DNA of 40,171 bases from a virus. Location: IMG/VR virus record IMGVR_UViG_3300042868_008474, positions 1-40,171 of that record, one strand, 5' to 3'. Below, piece after piece: positions 250 through 34,497 of this stretch. The notes below the pieces were generated by a model. The model saw nothing but the letters and a program-made list of their open reading frames with translations. It searched no databases and had not been told where the DNA came from. The position numbers and the translations under genes were made by a program. Each line of letters begins with the position of its first letter. Within the stretch, counting starts at the first letter, position 1.

Positions 250-708
250 ATGTCTAATAAATCTATCGATAAGATGGCTGCTCAATTTACATCTGCTGAA
301 GAATTGCAAGCATATTGTGATGCACAGTATAAAACAATAATCTCTTTAAATAAAAAGCTAACTGAAAACGAAAGAGAGCTAGAGAAGCTCAGAGATGAAG
401 TTGAATTGCTTCGTAGTCAAAACACAACATTAAGTGCTCAAGCTTCTGTTATTGAAAAGAGAGATGGATCAAATCAATTCCAAGTATCGGATGAAGAAAC
501 AACTTGTATGATCCAATTGGCGATGATTCGCAGTAACGCTATGCAACGTGAATTAAGTAACGAAGAAGCTAAGCGATTTGAAACATTCGCTAAAGTCCTA
601 CATTTAATTCGTGGTAAAGACGTTAAAAAAGAAGACGATAAGCTCGATAAACTTTCAAGCGATGAATTATTAAAATTAATTGATTCAACTATGAAAGATC
701 CCCAATAA
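250..708 (+). CDS. Probable terminase small subunit
   Basis: This 152-residue protein would recognise phage DNA and deliver it to the large terminase for packaging. The start follows an AAGGAT ribosome site at 239-244 and lies three bases after the previous stop. Residues about 35-65 form a heptad-rich coiled coil. Residues about 80-125 (DEETTCMIQLAMIRSNAM, then ELSNEEAKRFETFAKVLHLIRG) resemble the helical core of small terminases from podoviruses and T4-like phages, where an acidic start, an 'EE..+F..L.K.L..IRG' segment and a charged tail are common. The stop is three bases before the TerL start, so the two are probably co-translated. The assignment rests mainly on position and helical pattern; no unambiguous helix-turn-helix was identified. 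Confidence 0.6.
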   Translation: MSNKSIDKMAAQFTSAEELQAYCDAQYKTIISLNKKLTENERELEKLRDEVELLRSQNTTLSAQASVIEKRDGSNQFQVSDEETTCMIQLAMIRSNAMQRELSNEEAKRFETFAKVLHLIRGKDVKKEDDKLDKLSSDELLKLIDSTMKDPQ

Positions 709-711
709 TAA

Positions 712-2193
712 ATGAACCAACAAAAATCTCCGAATAAAGCACCTTCTAAAGATGCCATAATCAGGGAGTTGTGGACTAGGGGATTACTTGAGTATAAAAT
801 GCATTCTGTTCAAAAAGAAATGTATGAATTATACAAAGGTGCTAATCCTAACTCGACTTCAGTATGGTTGCTTGCTCGTCAGTCTGGTAAATCCTACGCA
901 TTAGCATTAATCGCAATTATCGAAGCAATCAAGAATCCTCGATCTATTATTAAGATAATGACAGATACCAAAGTACACATGGAAGATGTGTTAATTCCAA
1001 TTGTTGAACAAATTTTAGAGGACTGCCCAGAAGATTTAAAGCCAACTTACAATAAGCAAAGATTTCGTTATACATTTGGTAATGGTTCTCAAATTCAATT
1101 AGCGGGATCGGATGCTGGTAACGCTGAACGATTAAGGGGTCAAAAGTCATTACTTGTTATCGTGGATGAGGCTGGATTCTGTACAGATCTTAGAAAGATC
1201 GTGCAAACCATATTATTACCGACAACCACTCACACTGGTGGTAAACTAATTCTTTCATCTACTCCACCGGAAGAACCTGATCACGATTTCAATGGCTATG
1301 TTGAAGCTTCTGAAATTGAAGGCACATTAACAAAAAAGACAGTGTTTGATAACCCTCTTTTAAATGAAGAACAAATTAAAAACATTATAGCTAGATATCC
1401 CGGTGGTGTTAACGATGTTGACTTTAGACGAGAATATATGTGTGAAATGCTCAAGAACTTCAGTAGGTCTGTGTTCCCTGAGGTTGATAAAGAGCTTTTA
1501 GCCAAAATTGTCAAAGAACACCCAAAACCAGCTTTCTATACCCCATACGTTTCTATGGATATAGGATTTAAAGATTTAACGGTTGTTTTGTTCGGTTATT
1601 ATGATTTTAAATCAAATAAATTGATAATTGAGGATGAAATCGTTAAAAGAGGCGAAGAACTGCATTTAGAGAAGTTTTCTAGTGAAATATTGAAAAAAGA
1701 AGACTTTTTGTGGACAAATATACTAACAAATGAAAAAACAGATCCCAAGGTCAGGGTTTCAGATATCGAACCAATTGTCACTCAAGAAATATATAGACAT
1801 TCAAGTAATCAACTTTATTTCACTCCTGTAACCAAAGAAAGAGGCTATAAACAACCTTTGATTAACCAAGTACGAATGATGCTTGTTAGTGGTCAAATTG
1901 TAATAAATCCAAGGTGTTCTGTGTTGATCAGGCACCTTGCGAATTGCCGTTGGAAGGACAATTCAAGAGATGAATTTGCTAGAAGCATGGGTGAAAACTC
2001 ACACTATGATGCCGCAGATGCATTAATTTACATGGTTAAAGTTGTTGATTTTACACACAATCCATTTCCTCAACATCACGATGCTTCGGCTGCTACCCAC
2101 TTCTTTAAAAGAGGAACCCCCTCGTTAACCAAGAAAATGGATACAACGGTTGAAGTGTTTAAGTCTATATACTCCCGTAAAAATAGAAAATAA
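712..2193 (+). CDS. terL: Terminase large subunit (ATPase-nuclease DNA packaging motor)
   Basis: This 493-residue protein pumps DNA into the prohead and cuts the concatemer. The ATPase half has a Walker A variant ARQSGKS at residues 55-61, a hydrophobic Walker B strand ending in VDEAG (about 147-155, catalytic E153), and a coupling motif LSSTPPE (about 181-187). The C-terminal RuvC/RNase H-like nuclease begins with the acidic strand VSMDIGF (D283) and ends with the HYDAADALIY block that supplies a late metal-binding Asp. Length and motif order are normal for phage large terminases. The ATG at 712 lies just after the previous stop with little room for its own ribosome site, consistent with coupling to the small subunit. 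The next gene starts after a putative promoter, so TerL ends this unit. Confidence 0.96.
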   Translation: MNQQKSPNKAPSKDAIIRELWTRGLLEYKMHSVQKEMYELYKGANPNSTSVWLLARQSGKSYALALIAIIEAIKNPRSIIKIMTDTKVHMEDVLIPIVEQILEDCPEDLKPTYNKQRFRYTFGNGSQIQLAGSDAGNAERLRGQKSLLVIVDEAGFCTDLRKIVQTILLPTTTHTGGKLILSSTPPEEPDHDFNGYVEASEIEGTLTKKTVFDNPLLNEEQIKNIIARYPGGVNDVDFRREYMCEMLKNFSRSVFPEVDKELLAKIVKEHPKPAFYTPYVSMDIGFKDLTVVLFGYYDFKSNKLIIEDEIVKRGEELHLEKFSSEILKKEDFLWTNILTNEKTDPKVRVSDIEPIVTQEIYRHSSNQLYFTPVTKERGYKQPLINQVRMMLVSGQIVINPRCSVLIRHLANCRWKDNSRDEFARSMGENSHYDAADALIYMVKVVDFTHNPFPQHHDASAATHFFKRGTPSLTKKMDTTVEVFKSIYSRKNRK

Positions 2194-2220: not shown

Positions 2221-2250
2221 AGTCGTTCACAATATTTATTAAGGGGTTAT

Positions 2251-2979
2251 ATGCTTAAAAAAATCAGTTACTATTTAAAAAGAACGGCACTAGCACTAAT
2301 GTGTGCTATTCTAGTTTGGTCAACACCTCATTTAAAAGATGCTCATTACCGATATATTATCGGAAATCAAGTTGTTAAAATTATTGGAGAGACAGGAACG
2401 GGATCGGGATTCCATATCAAAGCACCTTCAGGTAAGACATACATTTTAACTAATCAACACGTTTGTGCAGTTGCCGATAAAAATCAACAACTTTTAGTTG
2501 AGAATAGTGAAAAATTAGTTCCTAGACGAATAGTCGCTATTTATCAAAAACATGATTTATGTTTAATTGAAGCTTTGCCCGGTGAAGATAATGGTTTAAG
2601 AATGGCTAGTTCTATCACTATCGGTGAGGATATTGTACTAATTGGTCATCCTAGTGGTAGACCATTAACATTGTCTAAAGGTGAATTTGTCCACAAAAAA
2701 TTTATTCCAATGGTTAATTTAGAAATTAAATCACCACAACAATGTAATTTAATTGGTGGTACATGGTTAGATGGTGGATTTTTTATGCCATCGGTTTGTA
2801 TTGAAAAAATTAGTGCTTTTGGTATTTCAAGTCCATCTTATCCCGGTAACTCAGGATCTCCAGTTGTAAATAAATGGGGGAATGTAGTAGGTGTTCTTTT
2901 TGCTGGTAACCGAACTCAGCTTAACGATAGCTACATGGTTCCATTCCATGAATTGAAAAACTTTTTAAAGGACTATTAA
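2251..2979 (+). CDS. Membrane-anchored trypsin-like (S1/chymotrypsin-fold) serine protease
   Basis: I start this gene at the ATG at 2251 because AAGGGG at 2241-2246 precedes it; an upstream in-frame TTG at 2200 would run through the promoter motif. The protein has 242 residues. Residues 1-25 are a basic then hydrophobic segment (MLKKISYYLKRTALALMCAI), a signal peptide or membrane anchor. The chymotrypsin-fold triad is intact: H70 in TNQHVC, D102 in KHDLCLIEA and S201 in PGNSGSP. Cysteines at 72, 104, 165 and 183 could form disulfides, which suits export from the cytoplasm. It follows its own promoter motif and lies one base before the portal gene. Possible roles are processing virion proteins or cleaving an envelope target; neither is shown. 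Typical prohead proteases belong to other families. Confidence 0.88.
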   Translation: MLKKISYYLKRTALALMCAILVWSTPHLKDAHYRYIIGNQVVKIIGETGTGSGFHIKAPSGKTYILTNQHVCAVADKNQQLLVENSEKLVPRRIVAIYQKHDLCLIEALPGEDNGLRMASSITIGEDIVLIGHPSGRPLTLSKGEFVHKKFIPMVNLEIKSPQQCNLIGGTWLDGGFFMPSVCIEKISAFGISSPSYPGNSGSPVVNKWGNVVGVLFAGNRTQLNDSYMVPFHELKNFLKDY

Positions 2980-2980
2980 A

Positions 2981-5002
2981 ATGTCAGATTCCAAGGTATA
3001 TTTTGCTGCTCGAAGTTCAGCAGATTGTGCATCAGCGATTCTAGAGAAGAGTGCGTCGTTTTTTCAGACAATGCGTTCAAATTCGTATCTAGATAAAATT
3101 AGTCAGATGTGGTATTACTACTATGGTAACTTTAATCAAGAATCGGGCAGTGATGGTCACGAGATAACATTTACTGGTGAACAAGGTGAACTAGTTAAAT
3201 TACCTGTGAATCACTTTAGAAATTTAGCACAAAACATTTATAACATGATCATTGCTAACCGTCCTGTTTTAGAGGCTAGGGCGATTAATTCTGATTATAA
3301 AGCATTATCGCAAACATACTTAGCTAATGGTATTTTAGATTACTACATGCGTGAGAAAGGCTTAGAAGAAGCAATCAATGAGTGTGTCGAAATGGCAATC
3401 GTTCTTGGTTCATCTTATATTAAAATGGACTGGAACGCAATGGGTGGTGATTTTTATGAGGAAGATCCAGAAACAGGAGAGCCTGTATTTGAAGGTGAAT
3501 TAGAGTTTTCAGTTCTTAGTCCTCTCGATGTTATCGTAGATGGGACAAAAGAAAGATGGAATCACGAATGGATTACGACAAGGACTTACATAAATAAGTA
3601 TAACCTTATCGCTAAGTATCCTGAGTTCGCAGATAAGATTGCAGGAATCATGACAAAGAATGAAAACCTACAATCTAGAATGGGTTATTTTTCTAATGAC
3701 ACAACTGACGATATTCCAGTTTATGAATTTTTTCATAAAAGAACAGCAGCGATGCCTGATGGTCGTTATATGGTATTCTTGGATTCAGATATCGTATTGA
3801 TTGATGTTCCTCTTCCTTATCGTGAGATTCCTATATTTCGTTTAGCACCTGCTAATATTATGGGAACTCCTTATGGTTATACCAATATGTTTGATATTTA
3901 CCCATTACAAGAAGCAATCAATGCTTTGATGTCGGGTGCCTTAACAAACCAAAATGCTTTTATGGTTCAGTCCGTATTTATTCCGAGAGGAGCAGATATC
4001 ACAACTGATCAAATCGAAGGTATGAATATTATTGAAGCAAATGCTAAACCGGAACCAATTCAATTAACTCAAACTCCTCCTGAGGTTTTTGAAATGGTAA
4101 AGGGACTTATACAAACAGCGGAAATGTTATCTGGTGTTAGCTCGGTAACAAGAGGGCAGCCTGAAGCGTCTTTAAGATCAGCTCAGGCTTTAGCTCTCGT
4201 ACAATCGATGTCACTTCAATTCCAATCTGGATTTCAACAGAATTATGTTAAATTTTTAGAAAATACAGGGACTTGTTTAATTGAAATCTTAAAGGATTTC
4301 GCATACACGCCTAAGCTTATCGCACTAGTTGGAAGAAATAAAAGATCACTTCTTAAAGAATTCCGTGGTGATATGATTCGTGATATTAAAAAAGTAATTG
4401 TCGATGTTGGTAATCCTTTGAGCAGAACAACAGCGGGAAGAGTGCAGATGGCAGATCAACTTGCTCAAATGAAGCTTATTAAAAATCCTCAACAATATTT
4501 TATGGTTATGGAAACCGGAAGATTAGATACTCTAATTGAAGGTGACATTAGTGATTTACTTTTAATTAAAAGAGAAAATGAATGGTTATTGGAAGGTAAA
4601 GATGTCTTTGCCAATCCTCTCGATCAACATAGAATGCACATAATGGAACACCGTGCGGTGATAAATGATCCAGAGCTAAGACAAAATCCAGAACTATTAT
4701 CTAAAGTTCAAACACACTTACAAGAACATATTGATCTATTGAGAACTGTTGATCCTGATTTATTAATGCTTATTAATGAACAACCACTACAAGATCAAAT
4801 GATGCCACAACAAGCTCCTATGCCGGGACAACCGGGGGGTCCAATGGGTAACGCTTCTGTTATTCAACAAGGATCAGTAAATGAAATGATGAACCCGGGA
4901 GTTATGGGTGGACAAGCTGAAGCAACTGAATTAGTTGGTAATCAGCCCGAAGTTCCTGCTGAAGTATTACCTAATCCAAATTTAGAACCGAGAGCTAGGT
5001 AG
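2981..5002 (+). CDS. Portal protein (head-tail connector)
   Basis: This 673-residue protein should form the ring at the capsid vertex through which DNA is packaged and ejected. The first 150 residues have the podovirus portal pattern: a helical start, an 'NHFRNLAQNIYNMI.ANRP' segment, the string ANGILDYYMREKGLEEAI, and then 'A.VLGSSYIKMDWN', the strand leading into the wing. Residues about 390-560 are long helices that would form the stem and crown. The last 75 residues are rich in Q, M, P and G and look disordered. The ATG follows AAAGGA at 2967-2972. Position after TerL and before scaffold and capsid genes supports the call. The length is larger than T7 gp8 (about 536) and nearer P22-type portals (about 725). 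Confidence 0.85.
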   Translation: MSDSKVYFAARSSADCASAILEKSASFFQTMRSNSYLDKISQMWYYYYGNFNQESGSDGHEITFTGEQGELVKLPVNHFRNLAQNIYNMIIANRPVLEARAINSDYKALSQTYLANGILDYYMREKGLEEAINECVEMAIVLGSSYIKMDWNAMGGDFYEEDPETGEPVFEGELEFSVLSPLDVIVDGTKERWNHEWITTRTYINKYNLIAKYPEFADKIAGIMTKNENLQSRMGYFSNDTTDDIPVYEFFHKRTAAMPDGRYMVFLDSDIVLIDVPLPYREIPIFRLAPANIMGTPYGYTNMFDIYPLQEAINALMSGALTNQNAFMVQSVFIPRGADITTDQIEGMNIIEANAKPEPIQLTQTPPEVFEMVKGLIQTAEMLSGVSSVTRGQPEASLRSAQALALVQSMSLQFQSGFQQNYVKFLENTGTCLIEILKDFAYTPKLIALVGRNKRSLLKEFRGDMIRDIKKVIVDVGNPLSRTTAGRVQMADQLAQMKLIKNPQQYFMVMETGRLDTLIEGDISDLLLIKRENEWLLEGKDVFANPLDQHRMHIMEHRAVINDPELRQNPELLSKVQTHLQEHIDLLRTVDPDLLMLINEQPLQDQMMPQQAPMPGQPGGPMGNASVIQQGSVNEMMNPGVMGGQAEATELVGNQPEVPAEVLPNPNLEPRAR

Positions 5003-5004
5003 GT

Positions 5005-5793
5005 ATGAATAAGCTTTTACAATTGATACAAGATCAAGAACGAGATGATTACGTAACTAAAGAAGTAGAAGACGTATACAATGCCATTGCTGAAAAAACA
5101 GGTAGAACTCCAGAAGAGATAGCAAAAATAGGTGGAATGGAATCACAACATGGTAAGTATTCTGAGAATATGGCAGGATCAAGAGCTAAGGGTCTTTTTC
5201 AATTAATGCCACAAACAGTCAAGGATTTGTCTTCAAATGGATCACCTGAATCATTAAACACACAAGAAGAAGTCATGTCTAGACTTTTACAAGAAAATCA
5301 AAAAAAGCTAGGTCAAGATTCATCTATTGAAGATTTATATTTGTTACATAACCAAGGATTAGGTAAAGGTAAAAAATTAATCGCAGCTAATGAAGATGAG
5401 CCAGTAAGTGACATTCTTTCTAGACAAATAATAAATGCAAATCCCGCTCTTTATAAAAACAAAACAGTCGGTCAAGCTAAAGAATCAATTAAAGACATGT
5501 TAGATGAAAAAGGATCTAATTTTAAATTTAGATCTAAAATCGAGGATTTATTTACTGAAGATCAAATACCGAAAAGCGCAGGTACACCAGAAAATCCTAA
5601 TTCTCAATTGATAGATGAAAGTAATATACTAAATGATTTAGTCCAATATTTAATTGATAGTCGCGATAGAAATATTGATAAAAAAGAACAACTTAAAAAA
5701 ACAGAAGAACAAAATAAGTTTTTTGAAGAATTGAATAAACTAAAAAAAGAAAGAGCTGAAAAGGTAAAGAAGAAGTATGGCAGAGAGATTTAA
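5005..5793 (+). CDS. Lytic transglycosylase, probably virion-associated
   Basis: The 262-residue protein carries an SLT-type lysozyme-fold domain at about residues 20-145. The likely catalytic glutamate is E46 in IGGMESQHG. It is followed by the family signature SRAKGLFQLMPQT (about residues 60-72) and by LLHNQGLGKG (about 113-122). Such enzymes cleave the MurNAc-GlcNAc bond of peptidoglycan. No signal peptide is visible. The C-terminal third is a Lys/Glu-rich helix likely to form a coiled coil. It is encoded directly after the portal, without an adjoining holin, which fits a structural enzyme that opens the wall during DNA entry, as the transglycosylase part of T7 gp16 does. That role is inferred from position. 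Its last 17 bases overlap the next gene. Confidence 0.85.
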   Translation: MNKLLQLIQDQERDDYVTKEVEDVYNAIAEKTGRTPEEIAKIGGMESQHGKYSENMAGSRAKGLFQLMPQTVKDLSSNGSPESLNTQEEVMSRLLQENQKKLGQDSSIEDLYLLHNQGLGKGKKLIAANEDEPVSDILSRQIINANPALYKNKTVGQAKESIKDMLDEKGSNFKFRSKIEDLFTEDQIPKSAGTPENPNSQLIDESNILNDLVQYLIDSRDRNIDKKEQLKKTEEQNKFFEELNKLKKERAEKVKKKYGREI

Positions 5794-6494: not shown

Positions 6495-6685
6495 TGCCTT
6501 GGAGATTTGATCCGTTTTTAGTTGATCTTGTTTGGGTTCCTCCTGTTCAGACAATAACTGAACTAGCCGATATTAATTTCGGTGATCAATCAGGTGGTGA
6601 TCTAGAAATTGATACAGGGGATCGAACCAATGATATCTCGAACATAGACCAAGGTTTAAGAGTTTTTGACGATGGCAATATTTAA
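6494..6685 (+). CDS. Hypothetical 63-residue protein, fibre-module neighbour
   Basis: The start overlaps the upstream stop (TAATG) and the end overlaps the next gene by 14 bases, which argues for a real coupled gene despite its size. It opens MPWRFDPFLVDLVWVPP and continues with an acidic, Asp-rich segment containing GDRTNDISNIDQGLRVFD. I have an impression of similar short proteins beside tail-fibre genes of other phages but cannot name a function. The absence of predicted helices and the short length suggest a small structural adaptor. Confidence 0.55.
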   Translation: MPWRFDPFLVDLVWVPPVQTITELADINFGDQSGGDLEIDTGDRTNDISNIDQGLRVFDDGNI

Positions 6686-7055
6686 AGCACCAAAAATAAC
6701 AACTATACAAAGACAGACACTACTTTTAGATGTCAGTGAACTTGTATACGATGTTGATCAAAATATATTCTACGGTGGAGATGGTGTAACAGTTGGTGGG
6801 TTGCCAATTGGTTCAAACGTAGGAACAAGTATACAGCCGCAGAGAATAGAATTAACACAACAAGACATAGAAAATAAATACGTAACTTTAAATATAGCCC
6901 CACTATATCCGAATACAGTCAGTTTAACATGCGAGAATGGAATTCCACAAATAAATGGAGTGGATTTTATTGTCACTGGAAACATCTTAAGCTGGGATGG
7001 ACTAGGATTAGACAATTTTTTAGATAATACAGATGTACTGATAGTTCAGTACTAG
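6672..7055 (+). CDS. Small tail-fibre/appendage protein with a fibre-base motif and C-terminal beta domain
   Basis: I use the ATG at 6672; the in-frame TTG at 6666 is less likely. The product has 127 residues. Residues about 10-45 (TTIQRQTLLLDVSELVYD, then NIFYGGDGVTVGGLPIG) match the '..LL..SE.VYDTD.N.FY.GDG.T.GG.P.G' pattern of fibre N-terminal domains related to that of the Mtd tropism determinant. Residues about 55-127 form a beta domain ending SWDGLGLDNFLDNTDVLIVQY. A related ending is found in the next protein (DFIVS...RLTWIG...ETGDKVFF). It probably belongs to an adsorption appendage at the tail. Binding specificity cannot be read from the sequence. Confidence 0.65.
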   Translation: MAIFKAPKITTIQRQTLLLDVSELVYDVDQNIFYGGDGVTVGGLPIGSNVGTSIQPQRIELTQQDIENKYVTLNIAPLYPNTVSLTCENGIPQINGVDFIVTGNILSWDGLGLDNFLDNTDVLIVQY

Positions 7056-7078
7056 TGATCCATAAAGGAGGATACATT

Positions 7079-8512
7079 ATGGCACAACAAATTAAGAAGA
7101 AGTTTATCGGTTCTGACCAAATCGATGGCTCGAAGATCAAATTATTAGAAGGTCAAGCAATCAGAGGTACTAATTCTCTAGGTCAAGAAGTTGATTTAGT
7201 TAAAATTAGTTCTCAAGACAAAGTTGAAGTTTTAGGTCAAGAAGTTGCTCTAAAATCGGAACTAACTCAAGAATCACAAGACAGACAAGCAGGGGACGCA
7301 GCTACATTAGCTTCTGCCCAATCGTATGCTGATCAAAAAGTTGCTGATCTTGTTAATTCTGCTCCAGAAGTTCTTGACACATTGAAGGAACTTTCTGATG
7401 CTCTTGGTGGAGATGCAAACTTCGCAGCAACTGTTGCCGGTCAAATTGGTGCTGTTGATGATAGAGTTGATCAAGAAATTTCGGATCGTCAAGCCGCCGA
7501 CCAAATGCTCCAACAAGCTATTCAAGCTGAACAGTCTCGTGCTTCTCAAGCTGAGCAAGATCTTGATGCTAGACTCGATATTGTAGAACCGAAAGTATCT
7601 ACTTTAGAGTCAGAGATGGATATGGTTGAAATGGCTATTCAAGCCGAGCAAAGCCGTGCTTCAATGGCTGAGCAAGACTTGGATAATAGACTTGACATTT
7701 TAGAACCTAAGGTTTCTACTTTAGAATCTGAAATGGATATGGTCGAGATGGCAATCCAAGCTGAACAATCTCGTGCAAGCCAAGCGGAACAAGATCTCGA
7801 TTCTAGACTTGACATCTTGGAACCTAAAGTAAGTACTTTAGAATCTGAAATGGATATGGTTGAGATGGCTATTCAGGCTGAGCAGTCCCGTGCTTCTCAA
7901 GCTGAACAGGATTTAGATGCTCGTCTTGATATTCTTGAGCCTAAAGTTTCTACTTTAGAATCTGAAATGGATATGGTTGAGCAATCTGTTCAAGCTGAAC
8001 AAGCTGCTAGAATTGCCGCAGATGCTGCATTACAAGCTCAAATCAATGCATTAGATACTGGATTTGTAACTGAAGCCGAATTAGATAGTGCTGTTTCTTC
8101 TCTTGAATCTCAAATCGATGATGTTGACGGTTATGCACAAGAAATTCGCTCTGATTTAGACAATTTAGATGGTTATGCACAAGAAATTCGCTCTGATTTA
8201 GATCAAGAAATTTCTGACAGACAGTCAGCTGACTCTGCTCTAAGCGGACGTATCAGTACTTTAGAAGCTAAAGGTTATTCTAAGGGATCTGTAACTGTTG
8301 GTGCTGAACTTTCTTTTATTGATCTTGACAGAGAATATAGTATTCTTCTTTCAGTGTCAGTAGGTCGATTGATGGTTCATCAAGATGAAGACTTTATTGT
8401 ATCTGTTGTCGGTGGTAAAACTCGCTTAACTTGGATTGGCTCTTTAGTTAACCCAAGTGGAGAGGAAGCTATCGAGACTGGCGATAAAGTTTTCTTTTCT
8501 GGTGCTTTTTAA
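7079..8512 (+). CDS. Coiled-coil tail fibre with four 39-residue tandem repeats
   Basis: The start at 7079 is preceded by a strong AAGGAGG site (7065-7071); the longer frame from GTG 7055 is unlikely. The product has 477 residues. Residues about 1-60 form an N-terminal segment (MAQQIKKKFIGSDQIDGSKI) that probably attaches the fibre. A typical fibre linker follows (VLDTLKELSDALGGDANFAA). Residues 147-302 are four copies of a 39-residue unit beginning AIQAEQSRASQAEQDLDARL and ending TLESEMDMVEM, which should be a trimeric coiled-coil shaft. A shorter 14-residue repeat (GYAQEIRSDLDNLD) follows. The last 75 residues form a beta tip domain related to that of the preceding protein. A strong terminator follows the gene. 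Confidence 0.8.
   Translation: MAQQIKKKFIGSDQIDGSKIKLLEGQAIRGTNSLGQEVDLVKISSQDKVEVLGQEVALKSELTQESQDRQAGDAATLASAQSYADQKVADLVNSAPEVLDTLKELSDALGGDANFAATVAGQIGAVDDRVDQEISDRQAADQMLQQAIQAEQSRASQAEQDLDARLDIVEPKVSTLESEMDMVEMAIQAEQSRASMAEQDLDNRLDILEPKVSTLESEMDMVEMAIQAEQSRASQAEQDLDSRLDILEPKVSTLESEMDMVEMAIQAEQSRASQAEQDLDARLDILEPKVSTLESEMDMVEQSVQAEQAARIAADAALQAQINALDTGFVTEAELDSAVSSLESQIDDVDGYAQEIRSDLDNLDGYAQEIRSDLDQEISDRQSADSALSGRISTLEAKGYSKGSVTVGAELSFIDLDREYSILLSVSVGRLMVHQDEDFIVSVVGGKTRLTWIGSLVNPSGEEAIETGDKVFFSGAF
7517..7984 (+). repeat. Four tandem 117-bp coding repeats (39 codons each)
   Basis: Copies start at 7517, 7634, 7751 and 7868, with a degenerate fifth start at 7985. Protein identity is very high. 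Copies 3 and 4 differ at only two residues yet use different synonymous codons at 18 of 39 positions. The last 30 or so bases of the unit are nearly identical across copies. Confidence 0.95.
8129..8202 (+). repeat. Two near-identical direct repeats of 32 bases, 42-bp period
   Basis: The segment GGTTATGCACAAGAAATTCG plus twelve following bases occurs at 8129-8160 and again at 8171-8202. It encodes GYAQEIRSDL twice within a 14-residue period. Unlike the 117-bp repeats it is identical at the DNA level, so it looks like a recent duplication or conversion. Confidence 0.9.
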
Positions 8513-32423: not shown

Positions 32424-34034
32424 ATGATTCCTAATAATCGAAACAAAAAAGGTACAGGGTTTACAAACTTGAGTAGAATACTACAAGCGAGTAAAGGCTC
32501 TAGATTAGGGGGGCAGGTTGCTTCTGGTGTTCAAAAAGTTGGACAACAAGTTCGTGGGCAAATCGGTCAAGCAAGTGAGCAATTTCAAAAAAAAGCAGGA
32601 GAAGAAGCCACTAAATTCGGGGAAGAAGCTCAAGGTATGAGAGATGAAGAAATTAATCTGGTGACATCCGGTAATAAAGATGTTGATTTTCCTAAACTAG
32701 CTGATAAATTTACTGAATATCGATCAGGTGAATATAAGGGTCCAAGAGAAATTCAAGATTATGAATCATTAGCAGGTAAGGTGACTGAAGCTGAGCAATT
32801 AGGTCGGCTAGGCAGAACTTCCGGTGGTAAGCAAGAATTGTTACGTCGATTTGTTGGTGGTAAAGATTATTCACAAGGTGAACAAAGATTAGATACAGCA
32901 CTACTCGGATTAACTGGGCAACAGGGACTTGCTGAGGCAAGAAGATCAACTAGAGGATTAACTAGTGAGTTAAGTAGTGAGTCAGGTGCTGCCCGAAATT
33001 TAGCACAACAGTTACAAAAAGAAGCAGAGGGATTTGCAGACGAAACCACAAAAAAAATAGATCAAGCTAGATTGGGTGTGTCACAAGGATTAAATACTCG
33101 TGTTTCCGAAGCAGCAGCTAAAGAAAAACAAAGGTCTGATTTTGTCTCAGATATCAGAACAATGCTGAATACAAATGAATGGAAAGATCTCAAGCCTGAA
33201 GAAAAGTCAGCAAGATTAAATTCGCTTTTATCAAAAGCTGGACCAAAAAGTGAAACTAATCTAGAAGGTTCAGGTATTTTGTCTCAGGAGCAAGTTGATT
33301 CAATTTTGGGTAGTCAAGGTGTTTTAGCTTCAAGGAATGAATTTTTAAAAAGATTAGATACTATAAAAAAGAAGGGATTTTTATATGAAACTCCCCTATC
33401 TGATGCACCTGATTGGTGGATAAGGCAACAGCAGCAAGCTGACGCTGATAAAAGGCTAAAAGATCAACAACATGGAGTTAAAAGAGCCGGGGAGATGTAT
33501 GCTGATGTATCTGGAACGGGCGAGGAAAAAAGGGGAATACAAGCTAGAAATAAAGTTCTGGCGATACAAAAAAAATTAACTGGACAGGATGTGTATTCCG
33601 ATATTATAAACTCACTAGAGAATATAGGAAGTCAAAATTTAAATAGACAAGGCTTTGTTACACCGGAAGAAAGGGAAAAATTCAATCGATTAGATATGTT
33701 ATTGGGTCAAGCAGGTGGCGAGTTTACACAACCAGAAACAACATACAAAGAAGGTAATTTAAAATTCTTAAATCAAAATCAATCAAAATTAAAATTTATG
33801 GAAGATCAATTAAATTTAGCAAAACTTAAATATCAATCTTTAGCGACAATTATTGATGATAGAACAGAAAGATTACGGATGGAGAGAAAGGATGGTAGGG
33901 GAGAAGCTTATAGAACTATACAAAGGTTAATAGATGCTTCAAATGAAGATTTAAAAAGACAACAAGCTGAATATGATAAACAACTCGCAATTGTTAAAAA
34001 AGAAGAAGACGATGAATTAAAGGGAATTGTTTAA
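32424..34034 (+). CDS. Probable internal virion/ejection protein, coiled-coil
   Basis: The 536-residue product is hydrophilic, highly charged and almost entirely helical. It starts with a basic, Gly/Gln-rich segment (VASGVQKVGQQVRGQIGQAS). Long heptad stretches follow, around residues 170-230 and 440-530. No signal peptide or enzyme motif is visible. A GAGGG ribosome site lies at 32411-32415. It is the first gene after promoter candidate 7 and begins the block where podoviruses encode internal core proteins that leave the capsid with the DNA (T7 genes 13-16). The role is inferred from position and composition. Confidence 0.5.
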   Translation: MIPNNRNKKGTGFTNLSRILQASKGSRLGGQVASGVQKVGQQVRGQIGQASEQFQKKAGEEATKFGEEAQGMRDEEINLVTSGNKDVDFPKLADKFTEYRSGEYKGPREIQDYESLAGKVTEAEQLGRLGRTSGGKQELLRRFVGGKDYSQGEQRLDTALLGLTGQQGLAEARRSTRGLTSELSSESGAARNLAQQLQKEAEGFADETTKKIDQARLGVSQGLNTRVSEAAAKEKQRSDFVSDIRTMLNTNEWKDLKPEEKSARLNSLLSKAGPKSETNLEGSGILSQEQVDSILGSQGVLASRNEFLKRLDTIKKKGFLYETPLSDAPDWWIRQQQQADADKRLKDQQHGVKRAGEMYADVSGTGEEKRGIQARNKVLAIQKKLTGQDVYSDIINSLENIGSQNLNRQGFVTPEEREKFNRLDMLLGQAGGEFTQPETTYKEGNLKFLNQNQSKLKFMEDQLNLAKLKYQSLATIIDDRTERLRMERKDGRGEAYRTIQRLIDASNEDLKRQQAEYDKQLAIVKKEEDDELKGIV

Positions 34035-34038
34035 AATA

Positions 34039-34497
34039 ATGAAATTATCTTGTTTTAATATTGAGGCTGAAATTTTAATGGAAAATGGAAGCTATAAAAA
34101 AATAGGCGAAATACAAAAAGGCGAAAGAGTCGCTTTGGGTGGGGAAGTTAAAAACATTTCACCAAGAAAAGATACCGAACTATATCAATATGATAATTTA
34201 AAAGTTCAAGGAGATCAAGCTGTATTTGAATCTGGTGTTTGGACACTTGTTAAAAATTCAAAAAAAGCATATCCTATAGGTGTCGAATCTGCTATGGTAC
34301 ATTTTATTGAGACAGATAATCACCTTATTGTAACAAGAAATACTGTATGGGCTGATATTTTAGGTTCAAAAGATATAGATTATGAATTAGAAGTTTTGAA
34401 TCAAAATAAACCTCGTAATATTAAATTAGAAAGATTCTTGAATGAATATTTTCAAGATGAAAAAAATAAATTAAAAGAAATTAAAACACCATTTTAA
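34039..34497 (+). CDS. Stand-alone Hint-domain (hedgehog/intein-fold) protein, probably catalytically altered
   Basis: I use the ATG at 34039; an in-frame TTG at 34027 would overlap the previous gene. The product has 152 residues, and residues 1-107 match phage Hint domains. The block-A cysteine is C5 in MKLSCFNIEAEILMENGSYK, followed by KIGEIQKGERVALGGEV. The block-B region LKVQGDQAVFESGVWTLVKN (about 54-73) has Gln60 where related phage proteins usually have the His of TxxH. The late ETDNHLIVTRNTVWADI (91-107) keeps H95. Hint domains splice or cleave themselves; loss of the block-B residues suggests no cleavage or altered chemistry. Only four residues precede the cysteine, so no N-extein exists. 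It sits between two ejection-type proteins. I am confident of the fold, less so of inactivity. Confidence 0.72.
   Translation: MKLSCFNIEAEILMENGSYKKIGEIQKGERVALGGEVKNISPRKDTELYQYDNLKVQGDQAVFESGVWTLVKNSKKAYPIGVESAMVHFIETDNHLIVTRNTVWADILGSKDIDYELEVLNQNKPRNIKLERFLNEYFQDEKNKLKEIKTPF

Follow-up and report, generated by a model that had tools for sequence, protein, structure and literature searches.

A trypsin-fold protease of a phage lineage with a predicted membrane anchor, and its exchange for an unrelated exported serine protease

The virus record analysed here (the window, 40,171 bases) encodes between its terminase and portal genes a protease of 242 amino acids, here called PROT (positions 2251 to 2979; all window features given with coordinates below, from the TerS-like gene to the SLT-domain gene, lie on the plus strand). 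By computation, PROT has a trypsin fold, a catalytic triad, a signal or anchor segment and paired cysteines, all conserved among its homologues, and within its lineage it is mutually exclusive with an unrelated exported ClpP/SppA-like serine protease, with which it shares a gene slot. We consider it about an even bet (probability roughly 0.5) that PROT is an anchored periplasmic protease which cleaves envelope proteins at a late stage of infection, most likely for release, in a lineage where each genome carries one exported serine protease; the assignment of its target process to lysis or release is the weaker part of this reading.

Fold, active site and membrane anchor

The whole profile of Pfam Trypsin_2 (PF13365) matches residues 51-215 of PROT (7.7e-15; 56.3 bits, cutoff 27.6), and structure prediction, which the initial annotation had proposed as a check, gave a trypsin fold like that of DegS, HtrA and MarP: in the AlphaFold model, built with 35 sequences (mean pLDDT 95.7, pTM 0.88), one helix spanning residues 2-40 runs into the barrel. 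A Foldseek search with this model placed MarP at the top (E 1.2e-12), followed by plant Deg1, DegP and DegS; superposition on DegS and HtrA gave Z about 23 and an rmsd of 2.0-3.0, and Z values of 21-23.5 to DegS, DegP, HtrA1, HtrA2 and Deg1 identify an HtrA-type protease fold. Standing beside terminase and portal, the gene could be thought to encode a cytoplasmic prohead or scaffold protease, but none of the prohead protease families in Pfam or the phrog profiles matches PROT, the homologues carry an export segment and paired ectodomain cysteines, and the gene is dispensable in relatives sharing the head genes, so that such a role is scarcely credible. In silico, the Trypsin_2 match, the conserved triad, the model, the Foldseek result and the export segment give good support to the earlier view of a secreted or membrane-bound enzyme instead of a prohead one.

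Among known enzymes, PROT would work most like DegS or MarP, although by the tested features it is a member of neither family. DegS, the inner-membrane HtrA protease of E. coli, likewise has one N-terminal membrane helix and a periplasmic trypsin-fold domain, and superposes on the model with Z 23.5 and 2.5 A over 182 residues (VIA-align). In contrast to DegS, PROT has two cysteine pairs, an expanded loop in the L3 region and a gene in a phage packaging operon, and it lacks a PDZ domain: Pfam gave no match to one, and the protein stops at residue 242, directly after the protease domain. The DegS family of NCBIfam did not match either. MarP (Rv3671c) of M. tuberculosis is, as predicted for PROT, a membrane-tethered periplasmic serine protease, and its family (NF033740) is the best NCBIfam match (2.3e-13), but at 49.9 bits against a cutoff of 250; MarP has four membrane helices (PMC6628586), whereas PROT has a single hydrophobic segment in place of this N-terminal four-helix domain. 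Phage proteases of this general type have already been annotated: phrog_9683 'protease' matches PROT over residues 3-157 (E 8.2e-14; 3-157 of 233), a best stretch that includes the N-terminal region and leaves out the C-terminal third. In PADLOC the best match, RT-Protease_XI, covers profile positions 340-505 of 506, which is the protease domain only. Assignment of PROT to a defence system was therefore rejected, as was its identification with RT-Protease_XI, since a protein of 242 residues leaves the rest of that profile, a reverse transcriptase fusion, uncovered.

The complete His-Asp-Ser triad proposed from the sequence is borne out by His70 (2458..2460), Asp102 (2554..2556) and Ser201 (2851..2853, in the motif GNSGS), which fall on the triad of annotated DegQ (hhalign, 98.4% probability). 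Together with Cys72 (2464..2466) and Cys104 (2560..2562), which presumably form a disulfide, these residues are invariant in all 35 sequences of the homologue alignment, far beyond chance. A second presumed disulfide joins Cys165 (2743..2745) and Cys183 (2797..2799), both present in 26 of the 35 sequences and both absent in eight, and thus gained or lost as a pair; the remaining sequence (L029) has two loop cysteines, one of them misaligned. Conservation and loss of the cysteines in pairs fit an oxidised, extracytoplasmic domain. The four cysteines described earlier are correct for the ectodomain, while the protein has five in total, the fifth being Cys18 in the membrane segment. Cys165 lies in an expanded variable loop (residues 157-182; 2719..2796), which is closed by Cys183; in the DegQ alignment it stands at the site of loop L3 of HtrA proteases. 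Seven of the 13 residue changes between the window and the closely related contig G002 fall in this loop.

The N-terminal anchor of the initial annotation likewise holds: assigned from hydrophobicity and charge, the topology of PROT comprises a single hydrophobic segment (about residues 12-25; 2284..2325) behind a K/R-rich N-terminus of charge +4, and all 35 aligned homologues have one such segment behind a net positive start. It is followed by Pro26 and an HxxYLR-like juxtamembrane stretch conserved in most copies; these residues, along with the continuous modelled helix 2-40, speak for an anchor that is probably left uncleaved. The version of the enzyme in G092 carries a lipobox in place of the anchor and hence another export route; in the trypsin-fold protease at L355:1486-2199 the lipobox that replaces the plain anchor reads LITAC.

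Gene context, inheritance and origin

Beginning 57 bp past the terminase stop, the PROT gene ends one base ahead of the portal ATG, and both it and the portal gene have good ribosome-binding sites, that of PROT being AAGGGG (2241..2246), 4 nt before the ATG at 2251. A TTG at 2200 was rejected as the start codon because the homologues begin at the same MLKK as the ATG. This tight fit between terminase and portal gives the gene the look of a member of one late operon. A promoter of its own, as suggested earlier, finds no support: promoter-like sites number 15 against 14.6 +/- 3.9 in shuffled sequence, which is chance level. Neither structured RNA nor tRNA was found near the gene.

Upstream lie a TerS-like protein (250..708), recognised by position and family conservation, and the terminase large subunit (712..2193; phrog_2, 2.4e-28); downstream follow a P22-like portal protein (2981..5002; PF16510, 1.3e-11) and a protein with an SLT transglycosylase domain (5005..5793; PF01464, 2.5e-05). 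A 92-residue protein at 5777-6055 matches a segment of phrog_220, 'minor head protein and DNA pilot' (5e-21), and the G002 relative of a short protein at 34027-34497 weakly matches a Hint domain (Hom_end_hint, 0.029). PROT occupies the position between terminase and portal in 20 or more related contigs, the order in the clade of the window being M15 endolysin, small transmembrane (TM) protein, TerS, terminase, protease and portal, with the endolysin gene a few genes upstream of PROT in most of the clade. A second group has the protease directly before the terminase, a sister clade in which terminase and portal follow each other in the same order has none at that place, and further relatives carry a trypsin-fold protease at other locations. 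The placement at the head of the portal unit is therefore unusual against known phages, as had been noted, but regular inside this lineage. Two further features of these regions were seen: a gene recognised by eye as a probable GIY-YIG-type homing endonuclease, lying between TerS and the small TM protein (L007:2785-3435), and terminases of 849 and 882 amino acids (L185:2789-5338 and L203:3977-6625) whose inserts, roughly 360 to 400 residues long and in one case near the Walker A loop, are possibly inteins.

The neighbourhood also bears on whether PROT could be borne in the virion, packed next to the portal and ejected to act in the periplasm at entry. The order terminase, protease, portal and SLT protein in the window clade would suit this, as would the position of the gene upstream of scaffold or scaffold-like genes in G060, G078 and G089. 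However, the export signal, the disulfides and the lipoprotein form in G092 fit synthesis at the membrane and not packaging in the cytoplasm, and the sister-clade contig G054 (85.8 kb, near-full length) has the same packaging genes and no trypsin-fold protease anywhere, which makes a virion-borne enzyme very improbable.

Since a protein search with PROT gave only two relatives, at 95% identity, further ones were recruited by terminase. Those whose terminases are 85%, 59% and 58% identical all carry, at the same position, a protease with 56 to 37% identity, and a profile search for the family yielded 46 loci. Between the window and G002 (L136) the terminase and portal proteins are identical, with dS of 0.04 and 0.14, respectively, while the protease has dS 0.25, dN 0.029 and dN/dS 0.11. 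The last value indicates purifying selection, and the dS above that of the flanking genes suggests that the segment has probably recombined. The protease also diverges faster than its neighbours: the window and L005 share 55% identity in the protease, 85% in the terminase and 83% in the portal. The protease tree follows the gene locations in the contigs, which points to mostly inherited copies with few moves.

Bacterial genome contigs held no close relative of PROT (best 27%), and collections of plasmids and named phages gave no close match; the phage-collection matches were mostly weak, to genes like degQ, degS or protease Do, apparently bacterial sequence in phage records. A recent host-derived passenger is contradicted by these searches together with the purifying selection. 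By terminase and portal, the sole isolate relative is a Silvanigrella phage (28%), in whose partial record no such protease was found.

Exchange with an exported ClpP/SppA-like protease

In a search of 35 contigs, the large ones without the trypsin-fold enzyme all had a strong match to a ClpP/SppA-like protease, in every case with an anchor or signal peptide at its N-terminus, and those with the trypsin-fold enzyme had only ClpP genes lacking a signal. Such signal-less genes (in G013, G065, G067, G069 and G092) were left out of the count of exported proteases. Of the 27 related contigs that measure at least 60 kb, 17 had the trypsin-fold enzyme only, ten the exported ClpP/SppA-like one only, and none had both or neither; as the contigs are not certified complete, 'absent' may here stand for 'not assembled'. 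These 27 include a fresh set of five large contigs recruited by portal protein, two lacking the trypsin-fold enzyme and three having it, for which the ClpP-like state was predicted beforehand and fitted in all five. G013 was kept out of the final count, its portal being of another family (long branch); it carries the trypsin-fold enzyme, and the only ClpP in it lacks a signal peptide.

On the portal tree the protease type switched about four times, at least two of them on strongly supported branches. Independent pairs were too few for a test to reach p below 0.05, so the claim of exclusion rests on zero exceptions and on the sharing of a slot. The latter is seen in a cassette (G065 and others) composed of an HNH gene, a small TM protein, the protease, a TM/coiled-coil protein with a weak Rz-spanin match (0.0018) and an exported coiled-coil protein: in the G054 copy of this cassette, the place of the protease is taken by an N-anchored ClpP/SppA-like protease of 291 amino acids (Pfam CLP_protease, 1.6e-20). 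In the outgroups either type occupies the same gene slot. The exported ClpP/SppA-fold proteases of related phages, unrelated in fold, thus take the slot of PROT and replace it. The presence of one, and only one, such exported protease in every large contig checked suggests that these phages have a standing need to cleave envelope proteins, and the pattern makes a clean prediction for each new genome of the group. Neither this phage family nor a one-per-genome protease swap was found described in the literature searched.

A role in the envelope and other exported proteases

Three roles had been put forward for PROT: processing of host envelope proteins, a block to superinfection, and carriage in the virion. 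Since an exported ClpP-like protease can take the place of PROT, the first now appears the best supported. We envisage that PROT would be held in the inner membrane by its one N-terminal helix, its catalytic domain, presumably exported, active and disulfide-bonded, lying in the periplasm near this membrane. Being translated along with portal and terminase, it would appear late and cut envelope proteins at that stage, most likely aiding cell break-up and the release of progeny; candidate targets would be proteins of the inner membrane or periplasm that keep the envelope intact or restrain lysis proteins. The lineage would keep one exported serine protease, exchanging it at times for the unrelated ClpP/SppA-like one in the same slot.

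The link to lysis is drawn from the surroundings of the exchange slot, which are small membrane and coiled-coil proteins, including the one with the spanin match, and from the endolysin gene that the clade of the window has a few genes upstream. Counting against it, these neighbours have weak or no family matches, and the gene of the window clade has left the cassette slot for its present place between terminase and portal. There are precedents for both sides of the proposal. In Caulobacter the trypsin-like peptidase LypA, which with its catalytic serine is required for gene-transfer-agent lysis of the host, provides one for a trypsin-fold peptidase in lysis (PMC13236601), although LypA has CARD-like and ATPase domains and the partners LypB and LypC, whereas PROT is short, anchored and stand-alone. 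MarP, which activates the wall hydrolase RipA by cleaving it in the periplasm, provides one for a membrane-tethered periplasmic protease (PMC6628586).

The case of MarP could also be read differently, namely that PROT serves envelope quality control or stress signalling by a DegS- or MarP-like cut of one membrane-proximal host protein, for instance an anti-sigma factor or a peptidoglycan hydrolase precursor, so that the envelope stays functional during phage production. The closest folds (DegS, HtrA, MarP), the best NCBIfam match to MarP, albeit far under its cutoff, the activation of RipA by a periplasmic cut (PMC6628586) and the rigid helix setting the active site near the membrane are all in line with it. 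Yet two unrelated folds would hardly make the same specific cut, as the exchange with the ClpP/SppA-like protease would demand, and PROT has no PDZ domain for sensing a signal; we regard this role as rather improbable.

Superinfection exclusion or counter-defence, with PROT destroying the periplasm-crossing proteins of a second phage or periplasmic defence proteins of the host, is unlikely in our opinion. A late, membrane-anchored enzyme facing the periplasm would be well placed for it, and the faster evolution of the protease and its variable, disulfide-closed loop resemble an arms race. However, the exact one-per-genome exchange of two folds looks like housekeeping and not like the pursuit of a specific target, and PADLOC gave no match to a model of an anchored protease, RT-Protease_XI sharing the protease domain only.

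Phage release from Gram-negative-type cells is described in terms of holins, endolysins and spanins. If a lineage always has one exported serine protease and exchanges its fold, this would point to envelope proteolysis as a further step of release or, alternatively, to a broad counter-defence in the periplasm. Only tentatively, and with doubt prevailing, do we extend the late release reading to a required envelope protease of the lysis or release stage that either of two unrelated exported serine proteases fills, one for one, in the same slot; as far as the literature searched goes, no phage description of such a functional class was found.

The statement 'only one' holds for serine proteases, as several genomes have an exported zinc protease as well. 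The one of the sister clade was considered as a substitute for PROT and rejected, its homologues co-occurring with the serine protease. These SprT-like HExxH enzymes, exported or lipoproteins, were seen at L164:1696-2142 and L173:2323-2766, with homologues at L135:6072-6605 (minus strand) and in contigs G007, G009, G054, G060 and G065; in the sister clade the gene lies upstream of the endolysin. In L135 the SprT-like lipoprotein gene and a small TM gene adjoin a gene for a phage SPFH/Band_7 membrane protein (6595-7776, minus strand; 1.9e-10).
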